Position numbers and translations under genes: made by a program. Below, piece by piece: positions 10,115 through 37,732 of a stretch of 40,722 nucleotides of DNA. This DNA is from Spirochaetes bacterium ADurb.Bin133 (GTDB lineage: Bacteria; Spirochaetota; GWE2-31-10; MWDO01): contig MWDO01000002.1 in NCBI GenBank assembly GCA_002070605.1, forward strand, positions 1-40,722, in the 5' to 3' direction. Below the pieces are notes generated by a model. The model was not told where the DNA came from, ran no database searches, and was given only the letters and a program-made list of their open reading frames with translations. Every line of letters begins with the position of its first letter. Position 1 is the stretch's first letter.

Positions 10115-10200
10115 ATAACTTCCTGATTCGCTAATGATAATAAAATTTATTTAAAATGTAAATATTTATTTTGACTATTTACGCAACTTGGCGTTTTTTT

Positions 10201-10229
10201 GGAAAATCGACGCATATAGGACGCATACG
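10201..10229 (-). repeat. Partial CATATGCGTC repeat, minus orientation
   Basis: Read on the minus strand, this stretch gives TATGCGTCC followed by TATATGCGTCGATTTTCC. The second part matches the unit at 14912-14930 (ATATGCGTCGAATTTCC) with a single difference. It marks the left edge of the island between xerC and hslV. The remaining bases of 10115-10341 hold no gene or clear signal. Confidence 0.55.
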
Positions 10230-10341
10230 TTTCTAGATGAAAAAACGCATATTTAGATTATTTTATTTTTCTGATTCTAAAATTATTTTTATCATATATG
10301 CAAAAATTGTTCTCTAATTCGTTTGTGAAATTATTAAGAAT

Positions 10342-10554
10342 CTATTTAACAAGTTCGGATGCGTATAACAAGCAAGCATATATATCTTCTTTTTCTATTT
10401 CAGGATAATCTTCCAATAACTCCTCTATTGTAACGCCGCCTGCAAGAGCTTTAATTATTTGTTCGACAGAAATTCTTAATCCTCTTATTATTGGTTTATC
10501 AAGTAAAATATTTTGATTAACAGTTATTCTATCTAATAAATTATCAGTTACCAT
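10342..10554 (-). CDS. DUF433 antitoxin-like protein
   Basis: 70 residues matching the DUF433 pattern throughout: DRITVNQNILLDKPIIRGLR, then a winged-helix-like IEELLEDYPEIEKEDIYACL. DUF433 proteins are usually antitoxins encoded next to a PIN-like (DUF5615) toxin. AGGATAAAAT precedes the ATG. No toxin gene follows in the 227 bp before hslV and none precedes it, so it appears to be an orphan. Its codons are more AT-rich than those of the flanking core genes. Confidence 0.85.
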   Translation of the reverse strand: MVTDNLLDRITVNQNILLDKPIIRGLRISVEQIIKALAGGVTIEELLEDYPEIEKEDIYACLLYASELVK

Positions 10555-10651
10555 ATTTTATCCTACTTATAACTACTAATTATCTTAAATATAATTAAAA
10601 ATCTTCTTTAAAAGCAATTATTTTTAGAATTTGTTTTTTAATAGTTTATTT

Positions 10652-11347
10652 CTATTTCTTTATTTCATTATTACTAGATTTATCGGTTTTCTTTTCAGAT
10701 TTTACAAAATTATTCATTTCATGCAATAAACTTAGACGAATACATTTTTTTTCAATACCATTACTAATATTCTTCATGTTTCGCTCAACGTCTTTATAAG
10801 CAAAATCTTTTTCTAACTCTTTATAATTAAAATATTTATTGAAAGTAGACCTTAGAAATAAAACTTGATATGCAGGATTATCTGAATTATTATTAGCCGC
10901 CTTGATACTATTTTGCAATCTTGATGCAATATTTAATCCGCAACTGATAAATTCATCAGAATCGTTTATTTTAATATCAAGTTTTTTAATAAGTCCGTTG
11001 GATATTCCAAAGGTTAATCCCAGCGGTTCAATTTTTATATTTATTGATTTATCAACCGTTGATTTAAATTCCTCTTTAAAAGAGTGGCATAATTCTTTTA
11101 AAAACATTAATATATCTTTACCAATATTCTCTTTAATATCAAAAAAAAATATATACCCGTCCCCTGTGAATTTATAAATTTCAAAAAAATTATTTATATT
11201 AAGTTTATTTATAATCTTAAATAAATTACTATGGAAAAATTTCCATATATCTGTGTCCATATTAGCATTAAGATCTTCCATAATTTTTGTTGAAGAACAA
11301 ATATCCATAAAAACAATTAACTTTTCATCATCTACTTCTACCTTCAT
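10652..11347 (-). CDS. Stand-alone class III nucleotide cyclase
   Basis: 231 residues containing little beyond one class III cyclase catalytic domain. The metal-binding aspartates are D15 (FMDICSST) and D63 (KFTGDGY), and the transition-state pair is N139/R143 in GLNIASRL. The base-selecting positions read K59 and C136. Adenylate cyclases usually carry Lys with Asp/Thr, and guanylate cyclases Glu with Cys, so the product cannot be assigned. There is no membrane or sensor domain. AAGGAG precedes the ATG. The gene is AT-rich relative to its core neighbours. The neighbours (DUF433, beta-propeller protein) are not known cyclase effectors. A Pycsar-type cyclase was considered but no effector is adjacent. 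Confidence 0.8.
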   Translation of the reverse strand: MKVEVDDEKLIVFMDICSSTKIMEDLNANMDTDIWKFFHSNLFKIINKLNINNFFEIYKFTGDGYIFFFDIKENIGKDILMFLKELCHSFKEEFKSTVDKSINIKIEPLGLTFGISNGLIKKLDIKINDSDEFISCGLNIASRLQNSIKAANNNSDNPAYQVLFLRSTFNKYFNYKELEKDFAYKDVERNMKNISNGIEKKCIRLSLLHEMNNFVKSEKKTDKSSNNEIKK

Positions 11348-11423
11348 CTTTATTCACTCCTTAACAGTTTAATTATTATATGTTTATCATTAAATTAGAT
11401 AATACATTTCTCTCTCCAAAATT

Positions 11424-11465
11424 CGTCCGTTCATAATCGCGTAAAGCGACGATTATGAACGGACG
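11424..11465 (-). terminator. 16-bp perfect hairpin, probable terminator
   Basis: CGTCCGTTCATAATCG (11424-11439) pairs perfectly with 11450-11465 around a 10-base loop. On the minus strand the stem is followed by AATTTT, so it may terminate transcription from the beta-propeller gene. Confidence 0.5.
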
Positions 11466-11490
11466 GCAAAGTCCCCCGCATGTCTCCCGT

Positions 11491-11530
11491 CCCCTTCAGG
11501 TTGCGCCCCTACGGGCGCAACCTGAAGGGG
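11491..11530. repeat. 18-bp perfect hairpin with a 4-base loop
   Basis: CCCCTTCAGGTTGCGCCC (11491-11508) is perfectly complementary to 11513-11530, with loop CTAC. It lies 10 bp downstream of the beta-propeller gene stop. No T-run follows on either strand, so it is a strong RNA or cruciform structure and not a standard intrinsic terminator. Confidence 0.75.
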
Positions 11531-11540
11531 CTACTGCCCC

Positions 11541-13445
11541 CTACGGCGTCGCGCCGTACTTCACGAGAACTACGTTAACATCGTAATAATTAGTCCCCGA
11601 ATAGCTCCCCGCGACGCTAACTCCGGGTCCGTAAGTATAACTTTCCATTCCTCTCTGATACCCCGCCGCGTAAACGTTACCCGAACTATCGACGGCGACG
11701 GAATTAAACTCCGAGTAGTCATCCCCCGCCGTAACGCTCTTAGCCCATAGAGCAGTTCCCGACGAATCGTACTTCACTAGAACTACATTACAGTCTGAAT
11801 AACTCCCCGCGACGCTAACCCCCTCTCCGTAAGTAAGACTTCCCGTTCCGTATTGATACCCCGCCGCGTAAACGTTACCCGAACTATCGACCGCGACGGA
11901 ATAAAAGCGCGAATAACTCGTCCCCGCCGTAACGCTTTTAGCCCATAGCGCCGTTCCGGAAGAGTTATACTTCACAAGAACTACATTATTACTCCAATAA
12001 GTCCCCGCGACGCTTACTCCCTCTCCGTAAGTATAACTTCCCGTATCATCTTGATACCCCGCCGCGTAAACGTTGCCCGAACTATCTACCGCGACGGAAT
12101 TAAACTCCGACCTGTCATTCCCCGCAGTTACGCTTCGAGCCCATAGCGCGTTTCCCGAAGAGTTATACTTCACAAGAACTACATTATTATTCCAATAAGT
12201 CCCCGCGACGCTAACCCCCTCTCCGTAAGTAAAACTTCCCCTACCATCTTGATACCCCGCCGCGTAGACGTTACCCGAACTATCTACCGCGACGGAATAA
12301 AAGCGCGAGTAGTCATTCCCCGCAGTTACGCTCTTAGCCCATAGCGCAGTTCCCGAAGAGTCGTACTTCACGAGAACTACATTAGAGCCTGAATAACTCC
12401 CCGCGACGCTAACCCCCTCTCCATAAGTAAAACTTCCCGTTCCGCCTTGATGCCCCGCCGCGTAAACGTTACCCGAACTATCGACCGCGACGGAATAAAA
12501 GAGCGACCAACTCGCCCCCGCAGTTACGCTTTTCGCCCATAGCGCCGTTCCCGAAGAGTCGTACTTTACTAGAACTACATTATAGCCGGAATAACTCCCC
12601 GCGACGCTAACCCCCTCTCCGTAAGTATAACTTCCCGTTCCTCTTTGATACCCCGCCGCGTAGATATTTCCCGAACTATCTACAGCGACGGAATTAAATT
12701 CCGATGTATCCGTCCCCGCAGTTACGCTCTTAGCCCATAGAGCGGCTCCCGAAGAGTTATACTTTACCAGAACTACATTACCATCGTAATAATCAGTCCC
12801 CGCATAGCTCCCCGCGACGCTAACCCCCTCTCCATAAGTATAACTTCCCGTTCCCTTTTGATACCCCGCCGCGTAAACGTTACCCGAACTATCTACAGCG
12901 ACGGAATTAAATTCCGATGTATCCGTCCCCGCAGTTACGCTCTTAGCCCATAGCGCGGGATTAGAGTCAAACATCCACCCGGCGTAAAGTATAGTATTAG
13001 TCGTTATAGTATCTAAGTCAAAGTTCCATAGGTTGATTAGAGTAGATTCTTTATACCACCCTGAAAAAATATAATTCGTTTTTGTAGGATCTATCGGTTG
13101 AGTTACTTTTCCCCCATAATTTATTGTTTGCGAATTTACAAAACTTCCTCCGTCTGAATTAAAAGTTACTTCATATAACGGAGCGATCGTCGTTGAAGTC
13201 GACGTTGTCGTTGGAGCGATTGTAGTAGTAGACGGAGTAATTGTCGTTGTTGTGGTAGTAGTAGACGCATATGCGTCAATCGTCGTAGACGTGGACGACG
13301 TTGTAAACATATCAACGGTCGTCGTATTTCCGATTAGTTCATTATATTCATCTCTCGTTTTATCGTTAATCCAATTACACGCAAAAGGGATTAACAAAAA
13401 AAACGCCAAAACTGCCAAACCTATCGATTTATTTATATTATTCAT
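11541..13445 (-). CDS. SBBP-repeat beta-propeller lipoprotein
   Basis: 634 residues from the ATG at 13445, chosen because GGAGGATAAT lies directly before it; an ATG at 13457 would place that site inside the gene. A signal peptide ends in lipobox IPFAC. A Thr/Ser-rich linker (about 45-90) is followed by an InlB B-type (Listeria-Bacteroides) repeat ending in ILYAGW. Seven SBBP repeats of about 66 residues then follow, each starting LWAKSVTAG and containing VAVDSSGNVYAAG and NVVLVKY. Seven copies match one closed seven-bladed propeller. The repeats are nearly identical except at a few clustered positions. The DNA is richer in GC than its neighbours. Surface location is inferred; the ligand is unknown. 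Confidence 0.85.
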   Translation of the reverse strand: MNNINKSIGLAVLAFFLLIPFACNWINDKTRDEYNELIGNTTTVDMFTTSSTSTTIDAYASTTTTTTTITPSTTTIAPTTTSTSTTIAPLYEVTFNSDGGSFVNSQTINYGGKVTQPIDPTKTNYIFSGWYKESTLINLWNFDLDTITTNTILYAGWMFDSNPALWAKSVTAGTDTSEFNSVAVDSSGNVYAAGYQKGTGSYTYGEGVSVAGSYAGTDYYDGNVVLVKYNSSGAALWAKSVTAGTDTSEFNSVAVDSSGNIYAAGYQRGTGSYTYGEGVSVAGSYSGYNVVLVKYDSSGTALWAKSVTAGASWSLFYSVAVDSSGNVYAAGHQGGTGSFTYGEGVSVAGSYSGSNVVLVKYDSSGTALWAKSVTAGNDYSRFYSVAVDSSGNVYAAGYQDGRGSFTYGEGVSVAGTYWNNNVVLVKYNSSGNALWARSVTAGNDRSEFNSVAVDSSGNVYAAGYQDDTGSYTYGEGVSVAGTYWSNNVVLVKYNSSGTALWAKSVTAGTSYSRFYSVAVDSSGNVYAAGYQYGTGSLTYGEGVSVAGSYSDCNVVLVKYDSSGTALWAKSVTAGDDYSEFNSVAVDSSGNVYAAGYQRGMESYTYGPGVSVAGSYSGTNYYDVNVVLVKYGATP

Positions 13446-13458
13446 ATTATCCTCCATC

Positions 13459-14277
13459 TTAAAATTTATAACAAAAACTTATAGCCATGCTATCCATGCC
13501 TGTTTCAATATCAAAAGATATACTTTTATCTTTATATACGCTCATAGCGATTCCGGGAATTATTAAAATTGCTCCAATACTCATCGGAACAATGCCGCCG
13601 ACCAATCCTCCGATAAAATCATTATGAGCTTTCTGCCAATTTTCATACGGCTCTTTATTAGCAATTATCGCGTCTTGCTTTGGTCCCAAATAAGCCAAAT
13701 CAATTATTAAAACGGTCAATCCCGATAATAAAGAAACGCTTCCGACCGTAATTAACGAAATTCCTGCAATATTTACATTGTTTAACCTATTTGATTTTTT
13801 ATTTTCTATTTTTTTTACCTTTGTCTCCGTTAACTCCCCAATTAAAACATTTATTAACTCAGGAATATCGTCCTCATTTTTTGTGGTGATATTTTTAGCA
13901 AATTGAGCGGAACCGGTCGAGACTTCAACGCCTCTAATATTTATAGTTATATTATTTCCAATTTTGGTTACGCTTCCAAGAATAACGAGTTTAACGCCGT
14001 ATAGATTGCCTAATTCTTCGCGCAAGTTTTCGTTAAAATCATCGGAGTTTTGTAATTTAAGTTCCGCCATTAATTTATCGATCTGATTTCTTTCAATTAC
14101 CTCATACTTTTTTGTATCTATAAGCGCGGTTGTTAAATTTTCAACAATTGCTTCTGTAAGAGTTGCATCGACGCCCTTTGGAACAAAATTTAGAATCGCA
14201 ACTTTAATTTTATCTTGCGAAAATAAAACATTTATAAAAAATAATAGAAAAAAAGGAATAATAACATTTTTTTTCAT
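13459..14277 (-). CDS. CsgG-like envelope protein
   Basis: 272 residues. A signal peptide (cleavage likely after LFSQ, residue 21) is followed by a CsgG/LpoB-like domain, about 23-150: KVAILNFVPKGVDATLTEA, YEVIERNQIDKLMAE, GVKLVILGSVTKIG. Two hydrophobic segments (about 168-192 and 218-246) and a short C-terminal part follow. Related domains occur in curli secretion channels, LpoB and FlgO/FlgT-type proteins. It lies directly upstream of the beta-propeller lipoprotein gene, so a role in that protein's assembly or export is plausible but unproven. Confidence 0.75.
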   Translation of the reverse strand: MKKNVIIPFFLLFFINVLFSQDKIKVAILNFVPKGVDATLTEAIVENLTTALIDTKKYEVIERNQIDKLMAELKLQNSDDFNENLREELGNLYGVKLVILGSVTKIGNNITINIRGVEVSTGSAQFAKNITTKNEDDIPELINVLIGELTETKVKKIENKKSNRLNNVNIAGISLITVGSVSLLSGLTVLIIDLAYLGPKQDAIIANKEPYENWQKAHNDFIGGLVGGIVPMSIGAILIIPGIAMSVYKDKSISFDIETGMDSMAISFCYKF

Positions 14278-14402
14278 CCGGACAATCTCCTAAATTTCTT
14301 AAATTAATTTTATTATAAAACCATCCAAAACGGTTATTAACGCGAGTAAAATAAAAAATATCTATAAATTTTGCTAGAAATGAAAATATTTGCGAAAATT
14401 TC

Positions 14403-14430
14403 TTGACAATTAGGCGGAAATCCTTATAAT
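14403..14430 (+). promoter_or_regulatory. Consensus sigma-70 promoter
   Basis: TTGACA (14403-14408), a 16-bp spacer and TATAAT (14425-14430): both hexamers are exact consensus. The A/T-rich upstream bases could act as an UP element. The predicted start (about 14437) lies inside the heptamer repeat. The transcript would cross the repeat array and then run antisense to xerC; no protein-coding gene follows on this strand. Confidence 0.65.
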
Positions 14431-14432
14431 CT

Positions 14433-14509
14433 CTTGTATCTTGTATCTTGTATCTTGTATCTTGTATCTTGTATCTTGTATCTTGTATCTTGTATCTTGT
14501 ATCTTGTAT
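14433..14509 (+). repeat. 11 tandem copies of CTTGTAT
   Basis: Eleven perfect 7-bp units in a row begin 3 bp after the -10 box of a consensus promoter. Uninterrupted arrays of this kind change copy number by slippage. Confidence 0.95.
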
Positions 14510-14640
14510 CTGCGAACATTCGGATTCCTTGCGGGAAAATTTAGAATATTCTAGTTTAGAATTTATTTGTTGTCAATAGTTTTTTGATAATATTTATTTT
14601 TTGTCGCATATACGTCTTTTTTTAGGGGGCAGTCCCAATC

Positions 14641-14968
14641 CGCTCCATATGTGTCAATTTATTCGTCGAGGAGCGACACATATGTGTCAATTTCTCATCG
14701 AGGAAGCGACGCGACGCATGCAGCTCCATATGTGTCAAATTCTTCGTCGGGGAGCGACGCGGCGCATATGTGTCAAATTATTCGTCGGGGGGCGGCGCGG
14801 CATATACAGCTCCATATGTGTCATTTCTTGTCGGGGCGGCACGACGCGGCGGGTATAGCTCCATATGTGTCAATTTATAGCGGGGAGTAGCCGCGGCGTA
14901 TATAGCTCCATATGATATGCGTCGAATTTCCATCGAGAAGCGACGCGGCGCATATGCGTCGAATTTTT
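14641..14968 (+). repeat. Array of eight CATATG-centred degenerate repeats
   Basis: CATATG cores start at 14646, 14679, 14727, 14765, 14813, 14862, 14909 and 14951, so units are 33-49 bp. The common pattern is GCTCCATATGTGTCAATTT, then TCGTCGGGGAGCGACGCGGC. One core lies in a 14-bp palindrome GACACATATGTGTC (14675-14688). Whole units resemble each other and there are no unique spacers, so this is not CRISPR. Related single copies occur at 187-210, 10201-10229 (minus strand) and 28381-28395. Confidence 0.85.
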
Positions 14969-33457: not shown

Positions 33458-34341
33458 AAGTTATTGACTCCAATACCAAACTTTTTATTTATAATATTAC
33501 CTATTCTTGAGCGGTGGCATGAGGTATAATCTTTTTCAAAACAAGTTAGCGCTATCCTTTTTTTTGTGTTATAAAGATGCGCAACTTTTAATATAGCTGT
33601 AGTTTGATGAGCTAATATACCTTTCTCGTAGCGCTCAAAAAGTTTTTGGTAGTCGTCAAATGAACGCAGATTCTGCCGTTCGTTTGATTCAATGCCTAAT
33701 TCAGGAATGTGCAAATACTCGATATTTAATTGGTTTAATGAGTTAGATAGGTTTTTTTTGGAAAAACCGTATTTCATACTTATTGGATTTTTTCTAACAT
33801 CAATTACAAGGTTAATATTATTTAGTATAATGTCATTCAAATACTGATCGATTGTTTTTCCTTCGTAACCGATTGTAAAAAATGATTTTTCATAAGTATT
33901 AACAGTTAAGTTAAAATCTTTACCTAAAATATCACCGATTATTAGACTTTTAGATGCAAAATAAGGATACTTAGTATAAACATACTTTATTAAGTCTCTG
34001 CCCTTAATATTTTTATAAATATTGAAAAATTCTAAAATTAATATTTTATCGTTTTCTTTTAAATAATTGAAATAATTGAAATTGTCTTTAAGTTCAATTA
34101 TTTCATTATTTTGGATAAATTCTAATTCCTCAAGCCTTCTTAAATCTGCATACGACTGAAAGGAAAAAGGGCCATATTTATATGGTAAAAAGAAATATGT
34201 TTGATTATCGCTAGCATATTCTTGTTGATAAAGAAATAAATACTTTTGAAAATCAGTTTTATTTAATTTTTTACCAAAAACATACAATAAAGCTAATAAA
34301 AATCGCTGTCTATAAAATTGGGGCGGTTTTCTTTCAGCCAT
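33454..34341 (-). CDS. YwgA-like/DUF488 fusion protein
   Basis: 295 residues from the ATG at 34341, chosen because GGAGGG lies 7 bases before it; it overlaps the restriction gene stop by 8 bp. The N-terminal half (to about 150) resembles the YwgA/SocA-like winged-helix family (KTDFQKYLFLYQQEY, YKYGPFSFQSY). The C-terminal half is DUF488: FFTIGYEGKTIDQYL, LVIDVRKNP, LHIPELGI and a terminal CFEKDYTSCHR. The Cys/His/Arg cluster is typical of DUF488. Molecular function is unknown. It is the middle gene of a coupled three-gene set. Confidence 0.8.
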   Translation of the reverse strand: MAERKPPQFYRQRFLLALLYVFGKKLNKTDFQKYLFLYQQEYASDNQTYFFLPYKYGPFSFQSYADLRRLEELEFIQNNEIIELKDNFNYFNYLKENDKILILEFFNIYKNIKGRDLIKYVYTKYPYFASKSLIIGDILGKDFNLTVNTYEKSFFTIGYEGKTIDQYLNDIILNNINLVIDVRKNPISMKYGFSKKNLSNSLNQLNIEYLHIPELGIESNERQNLRSFDDYQKLFERYEKGILAHQTTAILKVAHLYNTKKRIALTCFEKDYTSCHRSRIGNIINKKFGIGVNNL

Positions 34342-37300
34342 TATTTCCCTCCACAATTTTTATCTCCTCATCAGTCAATCCATATAACTTATAGACCAAA
34401 TTGTCAATCTGATTATCAATCAAATCAATCTTCTGTTTATATAATTTTTTATCGCTATCGCTTTTTGCATTGTGATATAATTTTTGTGTTTCAAGCATCT
34501 GATCTACTAGGGAGACGAGTTTATCATGCTGGGCTTTTTCAGTTGAATTAGAAAAATCTATTTTTCTAATTGGAAGATTTTCTACAAATTGCTTTCTAAA
34601 TCTTAAATATCCTCCACTTATATGAGCAATAGAATATTTTAAATGGAAATATTTATTTAATAATCTTGAATTTAATAGAGATAGAATATATTTTAATGAA
34701 AAATCACAGAAATTATTATTAAGATATAAAAAATAAATTGTTTTGAGACATAATAACCCTTGATTATCATAAGAGCCATTAAACATTAATCCAATATCAC
34801 GGAAAAATATTTTTTCTTTCTTAAATATTTCCAAGGGTTTACTTTCTGGTATTTTTGACATATCATATTTTACAAAATTATTATTCCATTGATGAAAATA
34901 TCCACTTTTTATATCTTTTCCAATTAAATATTTCTCACTATCATTGTCATTTATTAGTAGTTTTTCTGGAGGTGGTCTAAAACCTCTTGTTATATTAGAA
35001 ATATTACCTAATAAAATAGAATTATTTTCTACCTTATTAATCCAATTATTACCAATTGTTGAAAAATCAAAATGAAACTCATTTTTATAAAAATCTTTTT
35101 GTTTTCTTTTTTTAAAATAAGGCAAATCTCCATTTATGAATTTATCACAAAATAAAACTTCATTATTATTTCTATTATTAATATCACTTTCTCTTTCTAA
35201 AATAATAATATAAGGATAAACGGATGCTTGAGAAAAAACATTATCATAAGAAACATCGATTGCTTTTACGAATTTTGAATTATCAAGTATATATTTCCTG
35301 ATATTAAGTCCATAATCTGAAATCAAGAATTTATTAGATACAATATAACCAAACAAGCCAGAAGTCTTTAATATACTAATCCCTTTTTCTATAAATAAAA
35401 CATAAATATCGTATTGTTTTATAGCTGAAATATACTTGTTATTTAAATAAATTTTTACATCATTCTCTATGGTATCGCTTCTCACATACGGCGGATTACC
35501 GATAACTACGTCAAAGCCGCCGGCATCAAATTCGTAATCATCCCAATTTGTAAAAGGATCAACAACGGAATGAACTTTATTTATAGCATATTCGTCGTAT
35601 TCCCATTTATCAACGTGTTTTAAATGATTGTTTTTCACATATTCAAGCGCATTAAAAAGATGAGTTTCATCTTCAAGAAAAGAATTGTTGTAGGATTTTG
35701 ACCAGAGGCTCTGCCGGAATCCTTCGCCCTGAACCGTCGATTTAAATCGACGGTTCGCTTGGACGGCAGAATTTCCTTTCAGATGTTTTACAATCTTTTC
35801 AATATCGTTACCCATATCTGCAATTATTATATGAACATGATCGGGTAAAATAGAACAGGCGAGAATTTTACAACCAAATTTTTCTTTTGTATTTATAAAA
35901 CATTCAACAATCAAATCTATCTCTTCCGGTTTTAATAAAACAGCTTCGTTACCGTTTGATATTCTTGAATATTTTGTTTCAAATGTGATGAGATGAAATT
36001 TTGATGCGCTTTTTTTCCCGAAAATTTCCGGAAACTCTTTTTCCCAATCAAACACGTTTACTTTCCTCATTGTTTCCAAATCAGGGAACAACCCGCGATT
36101 TAAATCGCGGGTTACCCGGGAAGTATAAAAATCGCTTCCGATTAATGAATTTCCGCATTTGATATTATTATCAAGAGACGGCAGGAGTTTAAAATCGCTA
36201 TGCTTAAAGAGATAACCTTCCGACTCCTTACTTTCATTTTCAAGAAGTTTCAAATATAACGAAAGTTTAGTAACTTCTACGGCTTGCGGGTCGATATCGA
36301 CGCCGTAAATATTGTTAATCAATATTTTCTGTTTTTCTTCGATTGTAAGTTTATAATTATTTTCAGAAACCTGATAGATTTTTTCTTCTTTCAACGCTTT
36401 TTTTAGATTTTTTTCTTTTGTCCAGTATTCAAGATAAAAATTTAATAAATACTGATACGCGCCGACAAGAAACGAACCCGAACCGCAAGCGGGATCGCAT
36501 ATTTTTAATTTTGATATTTCATCGAGAGTTTGATTTCTTATCTTCTCCCCAATAGTATTTTCAACTATATAATTGACGATATATTGAGGAGTATAATAAA
36601 CTCCGCCGGCTTTTCTTACCTCCGGTTTTTCTTCAATTATCGCAGTATGCCCGTCTTTAACGTTACGAAACTTTATCGTTTTACCAAGGAATTGCTCGTA
36701 AATATTACCGAGTATCTCGATAGGCAAAATCGAAAACTCATAAGGGCATTCGGGATAATACAATCCTTTTATTATAGAAATAAGAACTTTATCGTCAATT
36801 CTTAACCCTCTACTTAAGTCGGGGGTTGAGGGCGGTTGTAGCCATTCCTCCGGCTGAAACAATCCTGCATTATATTTATTGTTTGCCGTAATAAAAAGGT
36901 TGTTTAGTCTATAATATACAAAATTTTCTCTTTTATCCTTTGCGTTTTCTATTTTCGTCAAATTTAATAAATTCTCGTAAGGTTCAATCTCTTTATCTTC
37001 TGCAATTCTTAAAAATATTATCCTATCGATGATTTTTTGGACTGCATTATTCAGGTTATAAATATCAATATCGTTATTTCTTAGCGCGATGTTTTTAGCA
37101 AGTTCGGTTCGCCAATCTTCGACTAATTTCAATAATTCTTTATCAACCTCGCCCGTTCCCTTTTTATTTTTGTTCTCTTCTATATACTTGTCAAAACTCC
37201 CTTTCAAAATGGCGCTCTTTGAAAAAGTGTTAAAAATAAAGTCAAAATGTTTTTCGTACTCATCGTAAGTACAATAAAAAATTCTGGCGACGCTCGCTTT

Positions 37301-37732
37301 ATCGTTTTTGTCCGGTTTGATTCGGGTATCATAAATAGCAAATTCCTCAAAATCTGTAAGAATAGACAGGGGCAGTTTTGCCGTATATCCGTATCGTCTA
37401 ACTTGAAATGCCGGCGAAATTTCTTCTTTAATGTAGACCGACGGCTTTTTGGCTTCGACAAAGAATTTCCTCTCTTTTCCTATCCTAAATGAATAATCCG
37501 GAGCTTTTTGCTTCCCTTCAATCTGAATTTTATCTTCCCTGACTACTTCCCGATATTGTTCCGAATATCCTTGTAGATTTCTAACGTCCCAATCAAGTAG
37601 TTCAAAAAATTTATCGATAAAATCGACTCTTGTATTTGCCTCGTCGTAGATAGAGCTTTTATATTGCTTAATATTTGATTGAAATTGATTGACTAACTCG
37701 TCTAATTTCTCTTTCTTTTCGTTAATATCCAA
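34334..37732 (-). CDS. Type IIG-like restriction-methyltransferase with an inserted HUH/Y1 domain
   Basis: 1132 residues from a TTG start at 37732; GGGAAG precedes it, and an in-frame stop lies upstream with no ATG between. The N-terminal nuclease domain has a PD-ExK site (D79, E93, K95). A helical connector follows. The methyltransferase core has motif I DPACGSGSF (413-421) and catalytic NPPY (746-749). Between them, residues about 565-725 are an IS200/REP-transposase-like domain with HVH (632-634) and Y698. The C-terminal third (about 755-1060) is the probable target-recognition domain and is much more AT-rich. Three REP-like palindromes lie in frame. The gene begins 17 bp after a lipoprotein gene and is coupled to the DUF488 fusion. 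Confidence 0.88.
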   Translation of the reverse strand: MDINEKKEKLDELVNQFQSNIKQYKSSIYDEANTRVDFIDKFFELLDWDVRNLQGYSEQYREVVREDKIQIEGKQKAPDYSFRIGKERKFFVEAKKPSVYIKEEISPAFQVRRYGYTAKLPLSILTDFEEFAIYDTRIKPDKNDKASVARIFYCTYDEYEKHFDFIFNTFSKSAILKGSFDKYIEENKNKKGTGEVDKELLKLVEDWRTELAKNIALRNNDIDIYNLNNAVQKIIDRIIFLRIAEDKEIEPYENLLNLTKIENAKDKRENFVYYRLNNLFITANNKYNAGLFQPEEWLQPPSTPDLSRGLRIDDKVLISIIKGLYYPECPYEFSILPIEILGNIYEQFLGKTIKFRNVKDGHTAIIEEKPEVRKAGGVYYTPQYIVNYIVENTIGEKIRNQTLDEISKLKICDPACGSGSFLVGAYQYLLNFYLEYWTKEKNLKKALKEEKIYQVSENNYKLTIEEKQKILINNIYGVDIDPQAVEVTKLSLYLKLLENESKESEGYLFKHSDFKLLPSLDNNIKCGNSLIGSDFYTSRVTRDLNRGLFPDLETMRKVNVFDWEKEFPEIFGKKSASKFHLITFETKYSRISNGNEAVLLKPEEIDLIVECFINTKEKFGCKILACSILPDHVHIIIADMGNDIEKIVKHLKGNSAVQANRRFKSTVQGEGFRQSLWSKSYNNSFLEDETHLFNALEYVKNNHLKHVDKWEYDEYAINKVHSVVDPFTNWDDYEFDAGGFDVVIGNPPYVRSDTIENDVKIYLNNKYISAIKQYDIYVLFIEKGISILKTSGLFGYIVSNKFLISDYGLNIRKYILDNSKFVKAIDVSYDNVFSQASVYPYIIILERESDINNRNNNEVLFCDKFINGDLPYFKKRKQKDFYKNEFHFDFSTIGNNWINKVENNSILLGNISNITRGFRPPPEKLLINDNDSEKYLIGKDIKSGYFHQWNNNFVKYDMSKIPESKPLEIFKKEKIFFRDIGLMFNGSYDNQGLLCLKTIYFLYLNNNFCDFSLKYILSLLNSRLLNKYFHLKYSIAHISGGYLRFRKQFVENLPIRKIDFSNSTEKAQHDKLVSLVDQMLETQKLYHNAKSDSDKKLYKQKIDLIDNQIDNLVYKLYGLTDEEIKIVEGNNG
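35560..36040 (-). other. HUH/Y1 REP-transposase-like domain inside the restriction gene
   Basis: This codes for residues about 565-725 of the restriction-methyltransferase. It has the order of a Y1 REP-associated transposase: KFHLITFETKYSRI, ILACSILPDHVHIII (HUH motif H632/H634), IEKIVKHLKGNSA, LWSKSYNNSFLEDETHLF, then ALEYVKNNHLKH with Y698. All catalytic residues are present. No stop or frameshift marks the joints. Confidence 0.8.
35731..35756. repeat. REP-like palindrome 1, within coding sequence
   Basis: Perfect 26-bp palindrome with half-site GAACCGTCGATTT. It encodes RRFKSTV of the HUH domain. Flanking TCTGCCG (35710-35716) and CGGCAGA (35764-35770) add an outer stem. Confidence 0.85.
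36090..36113. repeat. REP-like palindrome 2, within coding sequence
   Basis: Perfect 24-bp palindrome with half-site AACCCGCGATTT, sharing the CGATTTAAATCG centre and AACC/GGTT ends with palindrome 1. It encodes TRDLNRGL, immediately before the HUH domain. Confidence 0.85.
36804..36827. repeat. REP-like palindrome 3, imperfect
   Basis: 24-bp palindrome with arms AACCC/GGGTT and centre ACTTAAGT; one mismatch and one G-T pair. Read in the same frame as palindrome 2, it encodes TPDLSRGL, near the end of the linker before the methyltransferase core. Confidence 0.7.

Follow-up and report, generated by a model that had tools for sequence, protein, structure and literature searches.

What does a perfect array of heptamers do between the end of a xerC gene and a pair of genes for exported proteins, and on which strand does it act? 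The array lies in a 40,722-nt stretch of DNA (bases 1–40722 of contig C2, hereafter the window), part of a 2.99 Mb genome assembled in 103 contigs (95.6% complete). Its spirochaete identity is indicated by the cytoplasmic filament protein CfpA (NF040882, 1046.6 bits). The preliminary description of this locus had reported a consensus promoter firing into two sets of repeats, and these features are indeed present. On the plus strand, TTGACA (from 14403), a 16-nt spacer and TATAAT (14425–14430) match the promoter consensus at 12/12 positions, the sole perfect match in the window. Eleven CTTGTAT units follow at 14433–14509, 100% identical and placed at the predicted plus-strand start; the perfect period-7 tract covers 80 bp (14432–14511). 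Further along, CATATG occurs in the eight units described, at 14646, 14679, 14727, 14765, 14813, 14862, 14909 and 14951, up to the end of xerC (14969, minus strand). The CTTGTAT tract far exceeds what chance would give. Within this genome, runs of three or more consecutive CTTGTAT units are confined to the elements described below (reversed control, 0), and three consecutive units were absent from all 59 other genomes of the phylum searched.

An element family with locus-specific repeat units

The heptamer tract sits in a module of about 200 bp that occurs at three loci in this genome and at two in G001, a sister species and the sole other genome of the genus among 59 relatives sampled. A BLAST search with 14290–14640 recovered C1:218-31(-) at 94%, C89:1-159 at 92% and C4:90882-91077 at 79% identity, as well as contigs C160 and C486 of G001. 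The C486 copy stops at the contig end just before the leader ATG, and its array and gene are beyond the contig. When 84,980 species genomes were scanned with the promoter pattern of the element, only two contigs were returned, both from one MAG (Go_SlDig_bin_318), and they carry the same two element copies as G001. A phage origin of the element was considered and dropped, as neither the promoter nor the array pattern had a match in viral contigs.

Each array is perfect within its locus, and the unit differs between loci. Read on the plus strand, the unit is CTTGTAT in the window (n = 11) and at C1 (n = 7), CTTGTCT at C4 (n = 6) and CTTGTTT in G001 (n = 6). On the gene strand these units read ATACAAG, AGACAAG and AAACAAG, and the 11 units of the window have homologous arrays of 7, 6 and 6 units as counterparts. 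Homogeneous but locus-specific units at paralogous sites are what slippage-type turnover would be expected to give.

The unit number in the window has to be read with the assembly in mind. Many contig ends have exactly 75 bases in common at branch points, which indicates that the assembly words were about 75 bases long. Assemblers of this type would be expected to display a perfect tract in this phase up to a length of 80 bp before running into a cycle. Given words of this size, "11 units" means at least 11. Contigs C1 and C89 share exactly 75 terminal bases, T(CTTGTAT)6CTGCGAGC...GACT, and from this overlap are most likely one locus. The branch 75-mer begins exactly where 6-unit and 7-unit arrays would re-converge, which suggests that a 6-unit version of this array was also in the sample; a further element copy could give the same break. 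Together with the turnover of units between loci, this branch point hints at variation of unit number within the population.

The CATATG array (14646–14968) is a member of a dispersed repeat. The exact 15-mer CATATGTGTCAATTT has 414 copies in this genome, two in G001 and none in three further relatives, and the array gave 65 BLAST matches. Its units contain the palindrome GACACATATGTGTC. As a dispersed repeat that is missing from the G001 elements, the array was rejected as part of a transcript or switch. We also considered spread by a REP-type transposase (PF01797), which is unsupported: the PF01797 search of this genome identified no carrier transposase for the repeat, and the sole match was an inner segment of a restriction-methylase protein in the window. 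That protein (34334–37732, minus strand; 1132 aa) is of the Eco57I restriction-modification type, and its segment 607–702 matches the IS200-like Y1 transposase family.

In G001, topA-xerC is 87% identical to that of the window and hslV comes about 70 bp after xerC. The 4.8 kb from 10183 to 14968 in the window form an insertion that splits the xerC-hslV-hslU order, which is contiguous in G001. The insertion contains the CATATG array, the element, two exported-protein genes and one further gene.

Orientation, leader ORF and hairpin

A predicted promoter of a leader and surface-protein operon, TTGACA-17-TAGAAT (14548–14576, minus strand, 11/12 match), is kept in every copy covering that part, with TAAAAT as its -10 box in G001 C160. 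The four copies that extend further have, in order on the minus strand, a Shine-Dalgarno sequence, an ATG, the repeats, a leader, a conserved hairpin and an exported-protein gene, the last being present in all four copies with known flank. Convergent with this promoter is the putative plus-strand promoter at 14403–14430, assigned by sequence match, which scores 12/12 at the three loci of this genome and 10/12 in G001, where the -10 box is CATATT. The neighbours on the plus side are inconsistent: a xerC end, a 136-aa ORF, a gene whose translation reads as a plsC-like acyltransferase and the end of a cheX-like gene. Moreover, the copies share no plus-side sequence beyond about 14620, and in the window a terminator-like hairpin with a T-run (14941–14961, plus strand) precedes xerC.

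On the minus side, the first gene after the leader in the window (13459–14277, minus strand) encodes a 272-aa exported protein with a CsgG/LpoB-like domain (PF03783, 1.4e-12; PF13036, 1.9e-5) and a hydrophobic N-terminal signal seen in the translation. The second (11541–13457, minus strand) encodes a lipoprotein with a lipobox-type cysteine in its translation, a Thr-rich linker, a Listeria-Bacteroides repeat and SBBP beta-propeller repeats (PF06739, PF09479, NF047494). The gene downstream of the element at C1 encodes a lipoprotein with an FGE-sulfatase domain, and those at C4 and in G001 encode lipoproteins with Listeria-Bacteroides repeats. The translations of the downstream proteins show lipobox-type cysteines and Thr-rich linkers, and judged from these features the proteins are probably exported. 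The SBBP propeller repeats are encoded by a 198-bp tandem repeat (6.8 copies, 11599–12956), which could itself vary by recombination. The stretch coding for the Thr-rich linker is near-identical between the SBBP lipoprotein of the window (13200–13270) and the C4 lipoprotein (L066:257-330), and this similarity suggests module exchange between surface genes that have the proposed switch in common.

Behind the predicted transcript start, the layout is AAGGA (GAGGAG at C4), 5–6 nt, ATG and then the array from about codon 4. In the window the Shine-Dalgarno sequence and ATG of this leader ORF are AAGGAATCCGAATG (14517–14530, minus strand), and the counterparts are GAGGAGTCCGAATG at C4 and AAGGAATTTCTATG in G001. 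The spacer between them differs between the species (TCCGA, TTTCT), whereas the Shine-Dalgarno sequence and the ATG themselves are kept. Read on this strand, the array is (ATACAAG)11 (14432–14511, n at least 11). Because its 7-nt unit is not a multiple of three, each gain or loss of a unit shifts the reading frame.

At each of the four loci exactly one frame of the three runs past the hairpin and on to the gene; the other two end early. In detail, the array at C1 (n = 7) is in the long frame as assembled (62 aa, stop 18 nt before the gene), as is that of G001 (n = 6; 100 aa, stop 24 nt before the gene). The C4 array (n = 6) is in a short frame, and n = 7 would give 67 aa with a stop 31 nt before the gene. 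The window (n = 11) is likewise in a short frame, with a leader ORF of 31 aa (14424–14519, minus strand) whose stop lies 149 nt ahead of the gene; with n = 13 the leader would reach 107 aa and overlap the gene by 65 nt in another frame. Overall, short leaders have 24–38 aa and end 121–251 nt ahead of the gene, against 62–107 aa for long ones, and G001 has an additional frame of 70 aa. By shuffling, the chance of such an open frame was 0.046 for the window, 0.075 for C4, 0.11 for C1 and 0.018 for G001. The loci are homologous over the first ~63 nt, which makes these values interdependent, and taken by itself the open frame has moderate statistical support.

The leader differences between the window and C1, and between the window and G001, change residues in our reading of the sequences. 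A conserved leader peptide was rejected on this basis, and the peptide appears to be free of purifying selection. We also rejected a fusion between leader ORF and surface protein, as the long frame either stops ahead of the gene or enters it in a different frame. The same applies to a stem formed across the array by TTGACAAT and ATTGTCAA, as the inner pairing is lost in G001.

The conserved hairpin (14319–14335, minus strand) lies between array and gene and has a 6-bp stem and a 5-nt loop. All four copies pair, with one- and two-sided (compensatory) changes. None of the other 591 positions tested had such a stem, and 0 of 2000 column-shuffled alignments contained one; since window and C1 are closely related, the four copies amount to about three effective samples. 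With -2.8 to -7.6 kcal/mol the hairpin is weak, and it is followed by UUUUAUAAU or UUUAUAU; a terminator scan did not call it a terminator at the three loci of this genome. On the gene strand of the longer G001 leader there are two terminator-like stems, against 0.1 expected, and a 17-mer from one of them occurs once in G001, so it is not a dispersed repeat there. The long frame reads across the conserved hairpin and both of these stems.

A candidate phase-variable leader and its alternatives

We consider that the element is probably the promoter and 5′ leader of the minus-strand surface-protein genes and acts as a phase-variable leader-ORF attenuator, which we propose because its anatomy matches the pil1 switch of Streptococcus gallolyticus. 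From the sequence we infer that the leader is transcribed and translated, that the array slips in the living population, and which state is ON, as follows. Transcription would start near 14541 on the minus strand from TTGACA-17-TAGAAT, and a ribosome would begin at the Shine-Dalgarno/ATG (14530–14517) and translate the (ATACAAG)n array. Each unit gained or lost would put the ribosome in another frame after the array. Two frames would stop early in the leader, and the third would run through the hairpin to just before the gene start or, in the window, across it. In the long frame, the ribosome would cover the leader, melt the hairpin and hand over to the gene (ON). In a short frame, the hairpin and the naked leader would be left free and the gene kept low (OFF); premature or intrinsic termination, Rho polarity and a closed ribosome site are the candidate routes.

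This model predicts ON and OFF repeat numbers for each locus. With an offset of 10 nt from ATG to array, the unit numbers that open the long frame in this genome are those with n ≡ 1 (mod 3). The assembled sequence would put C1 in the ON state and both C4 and the window in the OFF state, with the frame of the window uncertain because its copy number of 11 is a lower bound. The G001 copy as assembled sits in the long frame.

The promoter-like sequence, Shine-Dalgarno/ATG, array, frames and hairpin are present and conserved at four loci, and this same architecture, found in two species and always ahead of an exported protein, supports the switch, as do the slippage-type turnover of the units, the compensatory changes in the hairpin, the terminator-like stems that the long frame crosses in G001 and the C1/C89 branch point. 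Against it, the hairpin is weak, the leader peptide appears to be free of purifying selection, the long frame in the window overlaps the gene start rather than stopping before it, and open frames of such length are only moderately unlikely by shuffling (0.018–0.11 per locus).

Gradual tuning of the hmwA type, in which the length of an array between two promoters or in a 5′ UTR changes the transcript level without leader translation, would suit the window, where the heptamers lie on the gene strand between the distal promoter (14576–14548) and a possible proximal one (TTAATA-17-TATAAT, 14312–14340, minus strand, 10/12 in the window and C1). The proximal promoter was not found at C4 or G001, however, and such tuning accounts neither for the kept Shine-Dalgarno/ATG nor for the finding that each locus has just one frame open as far as the gene; we regard it as unlikely. 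A neutral microsatellite without any control function, present by chance in the duplicated promoter region of a family of surface proteins, is a rather improbable alternative. Because the copies are paralogous, a single origin accounts for the common array, and both the apparent absence of purifying selection on the leader peptides and the modest improbability of the open frames agree with neutrality. Yet the array is perfect in every copy despite the changed unit and is kept in both species, and the Shine-Dalgarno/ATG and hairpin are kept while the surrounding bases change.

The leader-ORF attenuator could also be part of a larger scheme, in which several loci would independently toggle several surface proteins and the convergent promoter would add an antisense RNA, with array length setting both the frame and a contest between sense and antisense transcription; we give this version only a slim chance. 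The preliminary description had suggested a non-coding RNA, transcribed from the plus strand with repeats at its 5′ end and perhaps antisense to xerC-topA mRNA, to which the perfect plus-strand promoter at three loci, the array at its predicted start and the lack of a plus-strand gene lend some weight, but the loci without xerC, the changed G001 -10 box, the differing plus-side neighbours and sequence, and the terminator-like hairpin before xerC make it very improbable, and it was rejected as the main reading. Its other suggestion, a phase-variable regulator, fits the evidence well.

Comparison with known systems

On/off switching of surface proteins by the gain and loss of repeats is known from a few disease-causing bacteria. 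If the leader-ORF switch proposed here is correct, it would place contingency loci of this kind in a genus with one other known species, from a sludge digester, and the likely pressure would be phages or grazers, not host immunity.

Among other heptamer arrays, the TAACTGA repeats of Beggiatoaceae and cyanobacteria mostly lie within several nucleotides of start codons; they form 169 sets, and the functions of the associated genes show no pattern (PMC4679880). They resemble the present arrays in being intergenic heptamers, and were suggested to act after transcription (PMC4679880). In contrast, the arrays described here are restricted to few loci, where they lie within an ORF, at a distance of more than 140 nt upstream of the gene for an exported protein.

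By repeat length, the nearest known system appears to be the hmwA heptamers of Haemophilus influenzae. At hmw1A, (ATCTTTC)n lies between promoters P2 and P1, and more repeats mean less expression (PMC8262952, PMC2424069). In both cases a heptamer array lies between a promoter and a surface gene, in H. influenzae that of an adhesin, and paralogous loci (there hmw1A and hmw2A) have differing unit numbers. The effect at hmw1A/hmw2A is an inverse, graded one on transcripts between two mapped promoters, whereas the present elements have a leader ORF in which just one frame is open, and only some of them have a second promoter.

The pil1 and pil3 loci of S. gallolyticus are controlled by leader-peptide attenuation with GCAGA repeats (PMC3894217). 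At pil1, the repeats lie in a leader ORF and unit gain or loss shifts the frame; the longer leader disrupts a stem-loop and raises transcription of the surface genes (PMC3894217). Shared with the present elements are the promoter, the Shine-Dalgarno sequence and ATG, a leader ORF built mainly from tandem repeats with a unit length indivisible by three, a stem-loop separating the repeats from the surface genes, leader frames of a short and a long type, and the presence of several loci in one genome. The elements described here differ in their 7-nt unit (5 nt there), their spirochaete host and their lipoprotein and other exported-protein genes in place of pili. Their conserved hairpin is weaker, their long leader mostly stops a short way ahead of the gene, a perfect promoter of convergent orientation lies within the leader, and the units differ between loci; so far they are known from sequence alone. 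In the literature searched, streptococcal pili were the sole case of phase variation by a leader ORF that carries repeats (PMC3894217). If the present reading holds, these loci would be a second, apparently independent case in a distant phylum, with several loci and diverged units, which would imply that this design evolves readily.
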